Assembly (NCBI RefSeq): GCF_900176135.1
Contig: NZ_FWWW01000076.1
Location: 1-64,000 of the forward strand
Direction: 5' to 3'
Source: Hymenobacter roseosalivarius DSM 11622
Lineage (GTDB): Bacteria; Bacteroidota; Bacteroidia; Cytophagales; Hymenobacteraceae
DNA: 64,000 nucleotides
The notes beneath the pieces are model-generated. The model saw only the letters and a list, made by a program, of their open reading frames with translations. It did no database searches and had not been told where the DNA came from. Shown piece after piece: positions 18,416-39,280 of this stretch (position 1 is the first letter of the stretch; each line of letters starts with the position of its first letter). The translations under genes were made by a program, and so were the position numbers.

Positions 18416-19426
18416 ATGGCATATCCTATTATCCTGGCCATCGAATCATCCTGCGACGACACCTCGGCCGCCGTGCTGGCCGGGGGGCAAATTCGCTCCA
18501 ACGTCGTGGCTACCCAGCGTGTGCACGAACAATACGGCGGCGTGGTGCCGGAGTTGGCCTCGCGGGCGCATCAGCAGCACCTGATTCCGGTGGTGCAGGA
18601 GGCCTTGCGCCAAGCCGGCGTCACCAAAGCTGAACTTGATGCAGTAGCTTTCACCCAAGGGCCGGGCCTACTAGGCTCGTTGCTGGTGGGCAGCATGTTC
18701 GCCAAAACCTTTGCGCTGGCGTTGGGCAAGCCGTTGCTGGCTGTGAATCACATGCGGGCGCACATTCTGGCGCACTTTATTAATGAGCCGCGCCCTACGT
18801 TCCCCTTTCTCTGTCTGACGGTTAGCGGCGGCCACACCCAGCTGGTGGTCGTAAAAAGCCCCCCAGACATGCAGGTCGTCGGCCAGACCATCGACGACGC
18901 GGCCGGCGAGGCCTTTGACAAAACGGCCAAGCTGCTCGGCCTGCCGTACCCCGGCGGCCCGCACCTGGATAAATTGGCCAGCACCGGCAACCCCACGCGC
19001 TTCCCGTTTCCAGTAGGCGCTATGCCCGGCTATGATTTCTCCTTCAGCGGCCTCAAAACGGCCGTGCTGTACTTCCTGCGCCAGCAAACGGCTAAAAACC
19101 CGAACTTTATTCAGGAAAATCTGCCCGACCTCTGCGCCAGCATTCAGCACACGATTATTCAAACCTTGCTGCGCCAGCTTCAGCGCGCCGCCGCCGATCT
19201 TGGTCTTACACAGATTGCTCTGGCTGGTGGCGTGGCCGCTAATTCCGGCCTCCGCGCCGCCTTACAGAATTTGGCCGCCGAAAAAGGCTGGGCCGTGTTT
19301 ATTCCCGAATTCCAGTATTGCACCGATAACGCCGCTATGGTCGCCATGACGGCGCATTTTCAGTTCGAGGCTGGCGATTTTGCCCCCCAGCTCGTCAGCC
19401 CGGACCCACGGTTGAAGTTGACGTGA
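18416..19426 (+). CDS. tsaD: tRNA N6-threonylcarbamoyladenosine transferase TsaD
   Basis: Transfers the threonylcarbamoyl group to A37 of ANN-decoding tRNAs. Family motifs are all visible: ILAIESSCDDTS at the N-terminus, QYGGVVPELASRAH, the iron-binding pair H112 and H116 in NHMRAH, SGGHTQL, GEAFDK and GGVAAN near the C-terminus. 336 residues is standard. The intergenic stretch to tamB (about 300 bases) carries both promoters; I could not identify an exact -7 element. A 33-bp perfect inverted repeat follows 14 bases after the stop. Confidence 0.97.
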   Translation: MAYPIILAIESSCDDTSAAVLAGGQIRSNVVATQRVHEQYGGVVPELASRAHQQHLIPVVQEALRQAGVTKAELDAVAFTQGPGLLGSLLVGSMFAKTFALALGKPLLAVNHMRAHILAHFINEPRPTFPFLCLTVSGGHTQLVVVKSPPDMQVVGQTIDDAAGEAFDKTAKLLGLPYPGGPHLDKLASTGNPTRFPFPVGAMPGYDFSFSGLKTAVLYFLRQQTAKNPNFIQENLPDLCASIQHTIIQTLLRQLQRAAADLGLTQIALAGGVAANSGLRAALQNLAAEKGWAVFIPEFQYCTDNAAMVAMTAHFQFEAGDFAPQLVSPDPRLKLT

Positions 19427-19440
19427 GTATGAAATCAGCT

Positions 19441-19533
19441 GTCATGCAGAGCGAAGCGAAGCATCTCGCGTGCTGACACTGGATTAGTAACCCAACGACT
19501 GCACGCGAGATGCTTCGCTTCGCTCTGCATGAC
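19441..19533. repeat. Perfect 33-bp inverted repeat after tsaD
   Basis: Left arm 19441-19473 begins GTCATGCAGAGCGAAGCGAA. Right arm 19501-19533 is its exact complement; the spacer is 27 bases. There is no T run, so it is an extragenic palindrome (REP/MITE-like) rather than a standard terminator, though the RNA would fold strongly. Confidence 0.9.
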
Positions 19534-19564
19534 GGCCTAATTTACAGTTTTCTCTTACCCATTG

Positions 19565-20588: not shown

Positions 20589-20638
20589 GAATCAGCGAAA
20601 TCAATTTAATCAGCAAAATCAGCGACTTAATCTGCGAT
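20589..20638 (+). repeat. Single copy of an AT-rich dispersed repeat
   Basis: The stretch reading CAGCGAAATCAATTTAATCA and on to CAGCGAC matches, with about five changes in 34 bases, the right arm of the ung/lepB inverted repeat at 34531-34563. Here only one arm is present, just before the NlpC/P60 gene. The rest of the smpB-NlpC gap (20478-20588) shows nothing recognisable. Confidence 0.6.
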
Positions 20639-20639
20639 T

Positions 20640-21431
20640 GTGGAATATGGAATTTGCCCCCTGAGCGTGGTGCCGGTGCGGGCCGAGCCGAATGACCGGG
20701 CCGAAATCGTTACCCAACTCATTTTTGGGGAGTGCTACACGCTGTTGCTCATTCAGGGTAACTGGTGCCAGATACGCATCGCGGCCGATCAGTATGTGGG
20801 CTGGATGGATGTAAAGCAGCACGAGCCTGTGACCAGCACCTACTTCGCCGAGTGGAGCGCGCATGCCCATCCGCGCAGCCTCGATGTGGTGCAGATGGTG
20901 AGCGATGCTGACTCGCGCCAACCTATTTCTCTGGGTGCTCGCCTGCCCTTTTTCGACGGCATGACCTTGCGCCTGGGCGAGCGGCAGCTTTTTTATAACG
21001 GTGCCGCGACGAATCCTGCCGCCAACGGCGACCCAGGGCGGAAGGCCGCGCTGCTCCAGAAGATGGGCCAAGCGTTTCTGAAAGCACCGTACCTGTGGGG
21101 GGGCAAAACCCTGTTTGGCGTCGATTGCTCTGGCCTCATGCAGCAGCTCTACGGCCTGGTTGATATGCAGCTTCCCCGCGACGCCCGCCAGCAAATCGAC
21201 CACGGCCGCACCGTGCATTTTGTGTCTCAGACCCAGCCTGGCGACTTAGCTTTTTTTGATAACGCCGAAGGCAACATCGTGCACGTCGGGATGCTGCTGG
21301 AAGACCAACAAATCCTGCACGCCAGCGGCGAAGTCCGCATAGATCCGCTCGACCACAACGGCATCTATAACCGTCAGCGCCAGAAATATTCCCATAAGCT
21401 ACGCCTGATCAAGCGGTTATTGCCTGATTAG
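20640..21431 (+). CDS. NlpC/P60 family peptidase with N-terminal SH3-like domain
   Basis: Cell-wall endopeptidase of the C40 type. Residues 5-60 form an SH3b-like domain (VVPVRAEPNDRAEIVTQLIFGE). The catalytic Cys is in GVDCSGLM (Cys163) and the His in GNIVHVGM (His215), with the YLWGGKTLFG approach loop before them. No signal peptide is visible from this start (a GTG at 20640); Bacteroidota homologues of this architecture often lack one as well. 263 residues, normal. A strong inverted repeat begins three bases after its stop. Confidence 0.9.
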   Translation: MEYGICPLSVVPVRAEPNDRAEIVTQLIFGECYTLLLIQGNWCQIRIAADQYVGWMDVKQHEPVTSTYFAEWSAHAHPRSLDVVQMVSDADSRQPISLGARLPFFDGMTLRLGERQLFYNGAATNPAANGDPGRKAALLQKMGQAFLKAPYLWGGKTLFGVDCSGLMQQLYGLVDMQLPRDARQQIDHGRTVHFVSQTQPGDLAFFDNAEGNIVHVGMLLEDQQILHASGEVRIDPLDHNGIYNRQRQKYSHKLRLIKRLLPD

Positions 21432-33748: not shown

Positions 33749-34414
33749 ATGTCCATAAAGATAGAAGAAAGCTGGCGCAAAGTACTAAAAGACGAATTTG
33801 AAAAGCCCTATTTCCAGCATCTTACCGCTTTCGTGCGCGGCGAGTACGCCACGGCCACGGTGTATCCGCCTGGGGGGCAAATTTTTCATGCCTTCGAGGC
33901 CTGTCCCTTCGATAAAACCAAGATCGTCATTCTGGGTCAGGACCCTTATCACGGTCGCGGGCAGGCGCATGGTTTAGCGTTTTCGGTGGCCGAAGGAGTC
34001 CGCACACCGCCCTCCCTGCAAAACGTTTTTAAGGAGCTACAGGCCGATCTGCCGGAAACTCCGCCCGCTCCGAATGGCAATTTAGACCGCTGGGCGGAGC
34101 AAGGCGTGCTTTTACTTAACGCCACGCTTACCGTTCGCGCCGCGGAGCCAGCCTCGCATCAAAAAAAGGGCTGGGAGCAGTTCACCGATACCGTTATTCA
34201 GCGCGTCTCGGAGCAGAAAGAGTACGTTGTGTTTATTCTTTGGGGGGCTTCTGCTCAAAAGAAGGTGGAGCTGATTGACGAAAAGAAACACCTAGTGCTG
34301 AAAGCGGCGCATCCTTCGCCCTACGCCGCCGACCGTGGCTTCTTTGGCTCCCGGCCCTTCAGTAAAACCAATGAATACCTGCGCCAGCACGGCTTAGAGC
34401 CGATTAAGTGGTGA
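33749..34414 (+). CDS. ung: Uracil-DNA glycosylase
   Basis: Removes uracil from DNA as the first step of base excision repair. The catalytic motif GQDPYHG has Asp65 and the second motif [18 protein letters not shown] carries His188. The LLLNATLTV segment is standard. 221 residues, complete. Its stop codon TGA is immediately followed by the first base of a 33-bp inverted-repeat arm shared with the convergent lepB gene. Confidence 0.97.
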
Positions 34415-34563
34415 ATCGCAGATTTTGCAGATTAAAGTGATTCCGCTGATTTGAACGGCTCCCTTTCTAGAAAAAAGCCCCCCAAATTATTTGGGGGCTT
34501 TTTCTAGTGAACGTGTGTACCATCTAAAGCAGCGGAATCACTTTAATCTGCAAAATCTGCGAT
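34415..34563. repeat. Perfect 33-bp inverted repeat flush with two stop codons
   Basis: Left arm 34415-34447 (ATCGCAGATTTTGCAGATTA and on) begins at the base after the ung TGA. Right arm 34531-34563 is its exact complement and ends at the base before the lepB TAA (read on the minus strand). A 83-base centre holds an intrinsic terminator. A diverged single arm is found at 20589. Confidence 0.93.
34471..34503. terminator. Bidirectional terminator between ung and lepB
   Basis: AAAAAAGCCCCCCAAAT-TATTTGGGGGCTTTTT-type hairpin with A and T tails, nested in the centre of the 33-bp inverted repeat. It serves both convergent genes. Confidence 0.92.
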
Positions 34564-35724
34564 TTAGTGAATCACATTAAATAAGCGGCTCCAGCGGATT
34601 TTGCTAAAGAAGTCAGCATATGGATCTACCGATAGCCAAATCAGAACGGCCTTGCCCACGATATGATCTTCGGGTACAAAGCCCCAATAGCGCGAGTCGA
34701 GCGAGTTGTGGCGGTTGTCGCCCATCATGAAGTAGTAGTTTTGCTTGAAGGTGTAGCTAGTAATGGGCTTGCCATTTTGCTGCAACACACCATTAGCATA
34801 CGTTACGCCTTCGTTGCGCTCGTAGCGCATGATGATCTTCTGATAAATAGCCGTGTTTTGGGGTGTTAGCGCTACTGTCTGGCCCTTCTTCGGAATTTGC
34901 AGCGGACCATAATTATCCCGGTTCCAGGGGAAAGCGGCTGTGGGCGAACTGTGCGGGTAGTCAGGATTGTTCGGGAAAACTTCCGCTTCGGCCTGGCCTG
35001 GCTGTGCTACTTCTTCCACCACGCCCTTAATAAAGGGCTGTTGCTTGAAATAAGCGGCAATAGTGGAGGTAGTATTCACCACGTAAGCAGGTCCCATGGC
35101 CGTAGTCTGTGCTTGGGGCACGCCGTTGGGCGTGTTGGAGTCCGTTACGCCTAAATCCTGAAACACTTTATCACGCACAGGGTCAGCTACTTGTAAATAG
35201 TAGCTGGACTGCATTTGCGGTGGGTTCGCCACTGGCTGCCCGTTGATATACACCTGCGTCTTCTTAATTTCCAATACATCGCCGGCCACGGCTACGCAAC
35301 GCTTGATATAATTGGTGCGCAGATCGGCGGGGTGCTCGCTTTCAAAGGGAATATTAAAGACCACGACATCGCCGCGCGTTATTTCTGAAAAACCAGGTAA
35401 GCGGTAGGAGGGAAGCTGAATCGCATCGGAGTAGCTCTTGATATTTGTGCCCCAGATGGTCTGGTGGGTGAGCGGTACCTGCAAAGGCGTTTGGGGCGTG
35501 CGCGGTCCGTAGTGCAGCTTGCTCACAAACAGATAATCGCCGACCAGCAGGGAGCTTTCCATGGAAGGCGTTGGGATGGTGTACGCCTCAAACGTAGCCC
35601 AGCGAATAAGCGAGGCCACCACCACGGCAAAGAGAATGGCGTCGCCCCACTCCCGCAAAAAGCTCTTGGGCTTCTTTGGTGCTACTTCGGTAGTGGAGGT
35701 TTTCTCCCAGAATTTTACGGCCAT
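34564..35724 (-). CDS. lepB: Signal peptidase I
   Basis: Membrane serine protease that removes Sec signal peptides. One N-terminal helix (about 29-45) precedes the catalytic serine in TIPTPSMESSLL (Ser54). The lysine-containing box is NYIKRCVAVAGD, and the C-terminal box is YYFMMGDNRHNSLDSRYWG. At about 387 residues it has the long insert between boxes common in Bacteroidota. The ATG at 35724 (MAVKFWEKT) is preferred over one 17 codons upstream. It follows dapB with a 149-base gap in the conserved parA-parB-DUF5683-dapB-lepB order. Confidence 0.95.
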   Translation of the reverse strand: MAVKFWEKTSTTEVAPKKPKSFLREWGDAILFAVVVASLIRWATFEAYTIPTPSMESSLLVGDYLFVSKLHYGPRTPQTPLQVPLTHQTIWGTNIKSYSDAIQLPSYRLPGFSEITRGDVVVFNIPFESEHPADLRTNYIKRCVAVAGDVLEIKKTQVYINGQPVANPPQMQSSYYLQVADPVRDKVFQDLGVTDSNTPNGVPQAQTTAMGPAYVVNTTSTIAAYFKQQPFIKGVVEEVAQPGQAEAEVFPNNPDYPHSSPTAAFPWNRDNYGPLQIPKKGQTVALTPQNTAIYQKIIMRYERNEGVTYANGVLQQNGKPITSYTFKQNYYFMMGDNRHNSLDSRYWGFVPEDHIVGKAVLIWLSVDPYADFFSKIRWSRLFNVIH

Positions 35725-35873
35725 ATAGCAATATGAAAACGGGCAGCGGGCTGCCCAGGCAAAGCAAGGATACAATTGAAGGGTTAAATATCCGAATTAA
35801 TGCAGCAATGTGCTCTGTAGAGGTCGGACGCCGGACAATTTGCTAGTAACTCCTAATGCAACCCGGTGCGTTC

Positions 35874-38368: not shown

Positions 38369-39175
38369 TTAAGCTGCTTCATCCTCAGCTGCTTCGGGGT
38401 CGGCAGCTACCGAGTTCTTCTCCACAATCTCGCGGGCCAGATTCAGGTAGCTGATAGCTCCTTTGCTGTCCGCGTCGTGCAGAATGACTGGAATACCGAA
38501 GCTCGGCGACTCGCTCAGCTTCACATTACGCGGAATAATCGTGTCGAACACCAGCTGCTGGAAATGCAGCTTTACTTCCTCTACTACCTGGTTGGAAAGG
38601 CGCAGGCGCACATCATACATCGTGAGTAGAATACCTTCAATTTCGAGTTCCGGGTTGAGCCGGCTCTGGATGATTTTGATGGTATTCAGCAATTTGCCTA
38701 AGCCTTCCAAAGCGAAGTACTCGCACTGCACCGGAATAATTACGGAGTGAGCGGCCGTGAGGGCATTCACCGTAATCAAACCTAAGCTCGGCGAGCAGTC
38801 GATAATGATGAAGTCGTACTGGTCGGCGAGCGGCCGCAGTGCCTCCTTCATCTTCTCCTCCCGATTCGGAAGGTTGATCATTTCTACTTCGGCTCCCACC
38901 AAGTCGATGTGGGAAGGCATGAGGTCGAGGTGAGGCAGGATGTTGGTTTGCAGAATGATATCCTGCGCGTTGATGCCATCCACCATGCACTCATAGATGC
39001 TGTTCTGAATGTCCTTGGGGTCGAAGCCAACACCAGATGTAGCGTTGGCCTGTGGGTCGGCGTCAACGAGCAGAGTACGGTATTCCAAAGCCGCCAAGCT
39101 AGCCGCAAGGTTGATGGATGATGTGGTCTTGCCCACGCCACCCTTCTGATTGGCTACCGCGATAATTTTTCCCAT
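38369..39175 (-). CDS. parA: Chromosome partitioning ATPase ParA
   Basis: Deviant Walker-A ATPase that moves ParB-parS complexes over the nucleoid. Motifs: [32 protein letters not shown], and [19 protein letters not shown]. 268 residues. It is the first gene of the leftward par block. Upstream lies an AT-rich inverted repeat (39200-39275), which may contain or mask its promoter. Confidence 0.97.
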
Positions 39176-39199
39176 GTGGGTTACTTCTTACTTGGTTAT

Positions 39200-39275
39200 A
39201 ATGAGTGAATGGACGAATAAGTGAATCCTTAATTATCTACGATCACTCATTCACTCATTTGCCCATTCACTCATT
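39200..39275. repeat. AT-rich inverted repeat of GTGAATGAGT-type units
   Basis: AATGAGTGAATGGACGAATA (39200 on, to 39226) is the near complement of 39249-39275 (three mismatches in 27). Short ATTCACTCATT units recur inside it. It separates parA's start from the metallo-hydrolase stop. Similar AT-rich words (TTAGCAATGAGC) occur near 43790 and 43890. Confidence 0.75.
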
Positions 39276-39280
39276 GTGTT

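Follow-up and report, generated by a model that had tools for sequence, protein, structure and literature searches.

The ung-lepB intergenic region

In the window, by which we mean the whole stretch of 64,000 nucleotides of Hymenobacter roseosalivarius DSM 11622 that was analyzed, the convergent genes ung and lepB are separated by an inverted repeat whose arms enclose a G+C-rich hairpin with a T run (Table 1). The ung stop codon, TGA, occupies positions 34412-34414 and the lepB stop codon, TAA on the minus strand, positions 34564-34566. The outer end of the left arm shares the last base of the ung TGA, that of the right arm shares the last base of the lepB TAA, and in each gene's own sense ATCGCAGATTTTGCAGATTAAAGTGATTCCGCTG follows directly 3' of the stop codon. 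The arms are 39 nt long and 97% complementary, and they are perfect over the first 35 nt when the A common to both stops is counted, or 34 nt without it. A preliminary description of this DNA had reported an inverted repeat flush with both stops and with a terminator in its middle, which we confirm; it had given the length of the perfect arms as 33 bp.

Table 1. Features of the ung-lepB region and the second copy of the repeat in the window
Feature	Position	Strand	Remarks
ung, uracil-DNA glycosylase	33749..34414	+	TIGR00628 match; left arm adjoins
Left arm	34414..34452	+	Four GATT units, spacing ~9-10 nt
Terminator-like hairpin, AAAAAGCCCCCC...GGGGGCTTTTT	34472..34503	.	Bidirectional intrinsic type; between the arms
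Right arm	34526..34564	-	Inverted copy with a single mismatch over its 39 nt
lepB-like signal peptidase I ORF	34564..35775	-	TIGR02227 match; right arm adjoins; the upstream TTG start is merely the longest option
Second family copy, single arm	20590..20639	+	GATT end adjoins the GTG start at 20640

A 20-mer of the repeat had three matches in the window with up to three mismatches and none in 100 dinucleotide shuffles. The copy at 20589 in the preliminary description does belong to the same family, and it adjoins a start codon, not a stop. A search of the whole window against Rfam at gathering scores gave one tRNA and nothing else.

The ung-lepB palindrome has a single-strand folding energy of -86.1 kcal/mol (z = -16.3; 200 shuffles). 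With inverted arms, the mRNA 3' ends of ung and lepB have the same sequence, as had been pointed out. The further suggestion that the two transcripts could pair with each other is not supported, since identical 3' ends are not complementary over their length and only a read-through RNA would pair. Pairing between different members of the family had also been proposed; 3' copies are in fact complementary to the 5' leaders of start-flush copies and could in principle pair with them.

Copies of the repeat in the H. roseosalivarius genome

A tolerant pattern located the repeat at 14 places in the window's genome, and a sequence model gave 30 matches at E <= 5. After removal of two chance-like matches (L038 and L039) and with L040 and L044 counted as one arm, 27 distinct copies were left, of which 23 were read as lying at a start or stop codon or no more than 3 nt away from one (14 starts, 9 stops). 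The start-flush genes include nusA, ffh, gatB, hemE, ftsW and trpD, the last with a TTG start; at hemE (L011) and at L012 the arm contains what appears to be the GTG start, and the apparent ffh start bears an arm in three species. At convergent gene pairs on contigs C120, C112 and C83 a terminator-like hairpin is enclosed by arms that are similar or identical. The remaining four copies adjoin a TATCTTTG-type promoter box (L025, L032) or a terminator T run (L029), or are unclear (L035).

A promoter-like box, TATCTTTG or TACCTTTG, was seen directly at the arm end in L025 and L032 (G000:C105 and C93, G000 being the window's genome) and also in L106 and L112 of a second genome, G020. At L032 the box precedes what looks, from a motif, like an SRP RNA gene.

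Placement of arm ends at start and stop codons

The pattern AATCHGYRN{1,3}AATCHGYGRTY was searched in related genomes with the reversed pattern as control. It matched in 26 of 39 genomes of the same order, with one control match, and in 56 of 61 congeners, with no control match and with 0 to 64 matches per genome. For the placement count, stretches were taken around all 19 matches of G020, all 38 of G002, 57 of the 62 of G016, and parts of G000 and G010. A first count found 91 of 114 outer ends flush with a codon. Addition of contig C110 of G000 and 200 kb of G010 brought the sample to 119 ends from five genomes, 96 of which were flush, 64 at a stop codon (-2 to +1 nt) and 32 at a start. Among the latter, 23 lay at +1 or +2 nt and nine had a GTG inside the arm. 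Starts were scored, in the controls alike, as the earliest in-frame start from -6 nt onward, and a GTG inside the arm can score by chance; without these nine the count is 87 of 119. Genes were called throughout by a simple greedy ORF method. By comparison, 6 of 452 random intergenic points and none of the 119 inner ends of the same repeats were flush. A different repeat family, GTCATGC.GAGCG, had seven copies, five with a neighbouring gene and one flush, which is too few for a good control.

At stops the arm often provides part of the stop codon (TRA/ATC, the slash marking the border), and at starts the arm is followed by one or two bases and then ATG. In G016, a genome with many similar arms, 43 of 57 ends were flush by reading of the rows. 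Flush placement is thus a rule of this family. Copies at random distances from stop codons, which the preliminary description had named as the result that would speak against its reading, were clearly not seen, and its expectation of a repeat family placed preferentially at gene ends was borne out; stops, the only ends it had considered, account for 64 of the 96 flush ends, and it had missed the 32 at starts. We rejected a passive filling of neutral spacers by the repeat, since it is the terminal unit, and not a random repeat phase, that meets the codon. Insertion at a TA target was not adopted either, as it leaves both flush ends of one spacer unexplained.

GxxExxY nuclease genes between the arms

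In one spacer of G020 (L104) a 132-codon ORF lies between 80-nt perfect arms and matches both TIGR04256 (GxxExxY; E = 1.9e-39) and PF13366 (PDDEXK_3; E = 1e-38). A nuclease gene between the arms of relatives had escaped the preliminary description. Of the 39 same-order genomes, 22 had a match to the GxxExxY profile at E <= 0.001, in 21 of them above the cut-off; of 14 control genomes, 3 had a match, none above the cut-off. We distinguished two types by motif, type A with LGxGFxE[LV]IYQ and similar sequences and type B with LGPGLLESVY. Type-A genes were found within arms of GATT/GATG units at L104/L342, L196, L156 and L205, while the arms of type B consist of other short units (GCAGAGG, GCGAAGTT, GCAGTGT) and mostly lie near the flanking genes.

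Flank-to-flank inverted repeats scoring at least 15 were present at 23 of 29 loci of both types in the same-order genomes, from which the degraded gene L203 was excluded, and at 1 of 19 control genes. Within Hymenobacter, 28 of 30 fetched type-A loci had flanking inverted repeats scoring at least 25, a count that stands without a control set of its own; the low-scoring L348 is near a contig end. In the same-order genomes, a flank with at least three GATT units was seen at 4 of 8 type-A loci and, on one side, at 2 of 13 type-B loci, so that arm unit and nuclease type are associated and not strictly tied. The sole GxxExxY gene found in the window's genome is of type B (L197, G000:C50:72551-72892) and sits between 38-nt arms that consist of GCAGAGG units and lie close to the neighbouring genes. 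A search for type-A genes found none in that genome; its GATT arms are therefore orphans, and for the same reason the ung-lepB copy is probably a relic.

Judged by the flank letters, one gene pair seems to be occupied by a GxxExxY element in several Hymenobacter genomes (L342, L343, L344, L346 and L347). The nuclease gene is found there in either orientation, as if the interior inverts via recombination between the arms.

Predicted structure of the nuclease

Residues D70, E80 and K82, forming a D...ExK motif, are invariant in 58 type-A proteins (L237 is a truncated protein). The structure was predicted with a pLDDT of 92.1 and a pTM of 0.85, and its best Foldseek match was 4ic1 (SSO0001; E = 6.1e-4), which we take to be a Cas4 protein. 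VIA-align gave Z = 9.2 for 4ic1; several restriction enzymes, as well as the Holliday-junction resolvase Hjc, scored about 6-7.6, and such values may reflect a common arrangement only. A sequence search of the PDB gave no GxxExxY relative at E <= 10. By predicted fold and motif the GxxExxY protein is a PD-(D/E)XK nuclease; as to function, the TIGR04256 and PF13366 models name nothing beyond the nuclease superfamily.

Distribution of type-A elements across phyla

A scan of named genomes used the best 80 of 551 loci by similarity, all of type A by motif, an uneven sample in which many loci come from metagenome-assembled genomes. The records of these best 80 of 551 are labelled Bacteroidota, Cyanobacteria, Spirochaetes, Chloroflexi, Fibrobacteres, Latescibacteria, Calditrichia and Neomarinimicrobiota. 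Five of the 80 were excluded from the search for unit arrays because of short flanks, and arrays of at least three GATT/GATG units lay beside 65 of the 75 usable type-A genes, on both sides in 38. The corresponding counts (any side, both sides) were 5 and 0 of 75 for mononucleotide shuffles, 3 and 0 of 29 for other genes, and 13 and 1 of 137 for shifted frames. Three of the same 80 loci had flanks too short for inverted-repeat scoring. For 109 other genes the 95th percentile of the score was 15 and the maximum 24; that percentile was exceeded by 56 of the 77 usable loci, while 36 of the 77 were above 21, the 95th percentile for 400 non-cognate flank pairs. Only one of the 77 was above the non-cognate maximum of 103, since arm sequence is shared between different loci.

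Outside Hymenobacter the arm often starts with TTGTCTGAAC-C. Among 25 loci inspected there, the arm adjoins starts in L226, L241, L249 and L268 and stops (TAG/TCTGAAC) in L241, L251 and L280, and the arm's own TGA is the stop codon in L217, L223 and L226; several arm ends lie tens of nt from the next gene, for example on the right sides of L214 and L278. Phage records contained no relative of the type-A protein at E <= 1e-5. Eight plasmid records had one, all at less than 60% identity and all predicted non-mobilizable.

Evolution of the ung-lepB spacer and of the arms

The ung-lepB spacer was readable in 16 species, after G001 (contig end), G004 (misplaced start), the split G005 and 10 genomes outside the genus had been dropped, and eight of these species have GATT-type arms (G000, G002, G003, G007, G008, G009, G013 and G016). 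The arms differ between species and resemble each other within a species, and in G003 and G008 the ung-side arm begins about 4-5 nt past the stop. Arm-bearing spacers measure 149-197 bp, while in G010, G011, G015 and G018 the spacer is 69-110 bp long with a plain terminator. The difference in length is about that of two arms, which suggests that the arms were added around an existing terminator spacer; alternatively, the whole arm-terminator-arm unit may have replaced the spacer. In G006, G012, G014 and G017 (L297, L307, L309 and L305) the spacer holds other, unrelated palindromic repeats. The ung-lepB spacer seems to be a hot spot for palindromes.

G010 is the nearest relative examined (ung 95% identical; 85% DNA identity over 102 kb). 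It has no arms at ung-lepB, a similar terminator hairpin is present, and the tryptophan-stop end of ung is the same in both genomes; at the 20590 site it has a different short-unit repeat at the gene ends. Another element, at 88789 of G000:C110 and 164544 of G010, is present in both genomes with a common interior and was therefore inherited. No fresh insertion was seen in the genomes compared, and some sites were vertically inherited. At 34412-34566 no target duplication is visible, the borders there being codons under selection.

Arm similarity was 0.88 within a locus and 0.77 between loci of a genome, and the partner arm was the best match in 17.5 of 30 cases. At one site compared between G020 and G005, where the flanks are 93-94% identical, each of the two substitutions found in one 80-nt arm has its mirror image in the other. 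Pairs at greater distance showed mirrored changes together with others, and in most of these pairs the mirrored ones were not the majority. In the comparison of mirrored substitutions and inner ends the arms of L367 were misdetected and those of L362 partly so. The likeness of arms within a locus and the mirrored substitutions fit arm-to-arm copying, or pairing under selection. The closest of the 30 Hymenobacter nuclease loci to the window arm was L361, with a local score of only 23 for a 46-nt query.

Among the 61 Hymenobacter genomes, the median number of pattern matches was 9 in those with a type-A gene (n = 32) and 3 in those without (n = 29; p = 0.002), with type A limited at 50% identity and nuclease genes with inner stops included. 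The presence of type B shows the same link (p = 0.002), so the correlation is not specific to type A. An L104-like clade stands out with a median of 36 repeats (n = 7) against 4.5 (p = 0.00014); all of these statistics ignore kinship and use counts copied by hand. G008 has 28 repeats and no GxxExxY gene.

Comparison with known repeat systems

In REP/RAYT systems a dedicated nuclease-type gene lies between inverted copies of a repeat. REPs, including those arranged as BIMEs with a RAYT (TnpA_REP) gene, resemble the arms described here in being short, palindromic, intergenic and present in many copies, part of them close to stops. Their placement near stops is far looser: according to PMC12306157, 446 of 4,072 predicted REPs of E. 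coli lie within 15 nt of a stop codon, whereas the present arms abut to the nucleotide, at starts as well as stops. The partner enzyme also differs, being a PD-(D/E)XK protein here and an HUH tyrosine transposase in REP/RAYT, and each arm here is a tandem array of phased units and not, as a REP is, itself a palindrome. The GTAG/CGTC tags that define most REPs, as stated in PMC3733652, are absent at the ends of the ung-lepB palindrome, which read TGAATCGCAG and TAAATCGCAG.

With MITEs and insertion sequences the family shares terminal inverted repeats, present at ung-lepB, and the occurrence of enzyme-bearing and enzyme-less versions. Unlike them, it had no transposase between the arms in the loci examined, its ends lie on codons, and the two arms of one locus share locus-specific linkers; no target duplication was seen. 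Short tandem units directly before start codons are also a feature of the TAACTGA heptamer repeats (MacGregor 2015, PMC4679880), which that paper places directly upstream of starts in distant phyla including Bacteroidetes. These have another unit, and the abstract mentions one indirect repeat and makes no mention of stops, inverted pairs or a nuclease partner.

The gene inside the full-length elements belongs to the GxxExxY/PDDEXK_3 proteins (TIGR04256, PF13366), a family named in PMC8934634. In the literature searched, which did not extend to subscription papers and preprints, we found no link of GxxExxY to repeat arms or gene ends. A palindromic repeat with a partner nuclease is a known kind of system, and we did not find GxxExxY arms described in that literature.

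Origin of the ung-lepB palindrome

By a GxxExxY element we would mean a small PD-(D/E)XK nuclease gene (TIGR04256/PF13366) enclosed by a pair of inverted arms, each arm being built of about three to five short phased units, in type A a GATT every ~9-11 bp. The outer arm ends in Hymenobacter lie mostly on gene borders, that is on stops, starts and occasionally a promoter box or terminator. The window palindrome has four and three GATT/GATG units in its arms, at least three in each, with an inverted repeat score of 43, and both of its outer ends have an offset of 0, one to the ung stop and the other to the lepB stop. Its arms are only 73 nt apart with no GxxExxY gene between them, and we therefore call it a derivative and not a full element. 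A nuclease-less, non-autonomous derivative of a GxxExxY element is what the palindrome probably is. The anatomy of the locus, the flush rule with its controls, the nuclease between the arms of full-length relatives, the persistence of sites between species and, in one pair of genomes, the mirroring of both arm substitutions are all observed.

The explanation with which this reading must chiefly be compared is that the arms are host signals under selection at gene borders, a REP-like punctuation of transcription or translation, with the GxxExxY genes as passengers. Exact placement at the starts and stops of housekeeping genes (nusA, ffh, gatB, hemE, ftsW, trpD) is what such a signal would look like, as is the arm at the apparent ffh start in three species, and E. 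coli REPs within 15 nt of a stop are described in PMC12306157 as stalling ribosomes. We nevertheless consider host signals unlikely. GATT arms are missing at ung-lepB from half of the readable relatives (8 of 16 have them), copy number is low (0-64 pattern matches in 61 congeners), and the location of 28 of 30 type-A nucleases inside arms would be left unexplained. In addition, the same arm end faces the gene at starts and at stops and would therefore stand on opposite strands in the mRNA, for which reason the arms appear to be an element of the DNA and not a signal in RNA. Another reading is a 3' UTR device in which the mRNAs of ung and lepB, or those of different family members, pair with each other. 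The strong fold of the read-through strand and the complementarity of 3' copies to the leaders of start-flush copies would suit it, but the two 3' ends are identical and not complementary and the nearest relative examined has no arms, and we regard such a device as highly improbable.

We think it just as improbable that the palindrome is an ordinary extended terminator which came to lie at the stops by accident; a hairpin does lie in the middle, in the arm-less relative too, but 96 of 119 ends are flush against 6 of 452 random points, start-flush copies exist, and the family recurs in 56 of 61 congeners. GxxExxY might also be a free-standing homing endonuclease, copied into the same spacer of other strains, with the arms as remnants of cut and repaired sites that are loosely linked to the nuclease-less copies. 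Homing would account for finding the nuclease, in one orientation or the other, at the same gene pair of several genomes, for the harmless intergenic location and for the PD-(D/E)XK fold. It would not, however, spread arms to dozens of unrelated gene ends, as in G016 with its 62 pattern matches, or yield the genome-specific arm subtypes of that genome, and we think it improbable.

If the palindrome is a derivative of a GxxExxY element, it would have arisen from one through loss of the nuclease. The phased GATT units could be binding or cutting sites of the nuclease, which would act at a hairpin or cruciform formed by the arms; nuclease and repair would then carry copies of an arm to the other side of a locus and to further gene ends, with the nuclease acting in trans where a copy has none of its own. 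Placement at gene ends would result from the insertion mechanism and not from later trimming. A bold option for the choice of borders is targeting coupled to starting or stopping ribosomes. The copies that adjoin promoter boxes and a terminator speak for something broader, a targeting of the edges of functional units. We give less weight to a rapid loss of neutral DNA as far as the border, since in G016, where many arms are similar, 43 of 57 ends are already flush.

Generalizing further, and more tentatively than for the ung-lepB copy itself, GxxExxY elements could be a class of mobile DNA not described before, one that has no transposase and for which a small PD-(D/E)XK nuclease and phased-iteron arms suffice, with insertion at exact gene borders. 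The choice of target would possibly be coupled to ribosomes that initiate or terminate, or else to the edge of transcription; the arm units that are read would differ from one nuclease lineage to another, and nuclease-less offspring would make up a large share of the short palindromic repeats between bacterial genes. There is a fair chance that the class as a whole is categorically new. To our knowledge, exact placement at both starts and stops is not expected of any known transposon; it implies either a choice of gene borders at insertion or strong selection of a kind not understood. If the proposal is true, a large orphan nuclease family would gain its first likely role, and an easily overlooked kind of intergenic repeat a likely source. 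To the widespread GxxExxY family the arms would offer a concrete setting and testable substrates.

Other short repeats in the window

The spacer at 19426-19561 contains an inverted pair from a different palindromic family (GTCATGCAGAGCGAAGCGAAGCATCTCGC), which recurs in G010; this pair is not flush with genes, its offsets being 5 and 18. Another inverted short-unit repeat (AATGAGTGAATGGACGAATAAGTGAAT) occupies the spacer at 39175-39280 and possibly represents the arms of yet another GxxExxY-like element type.
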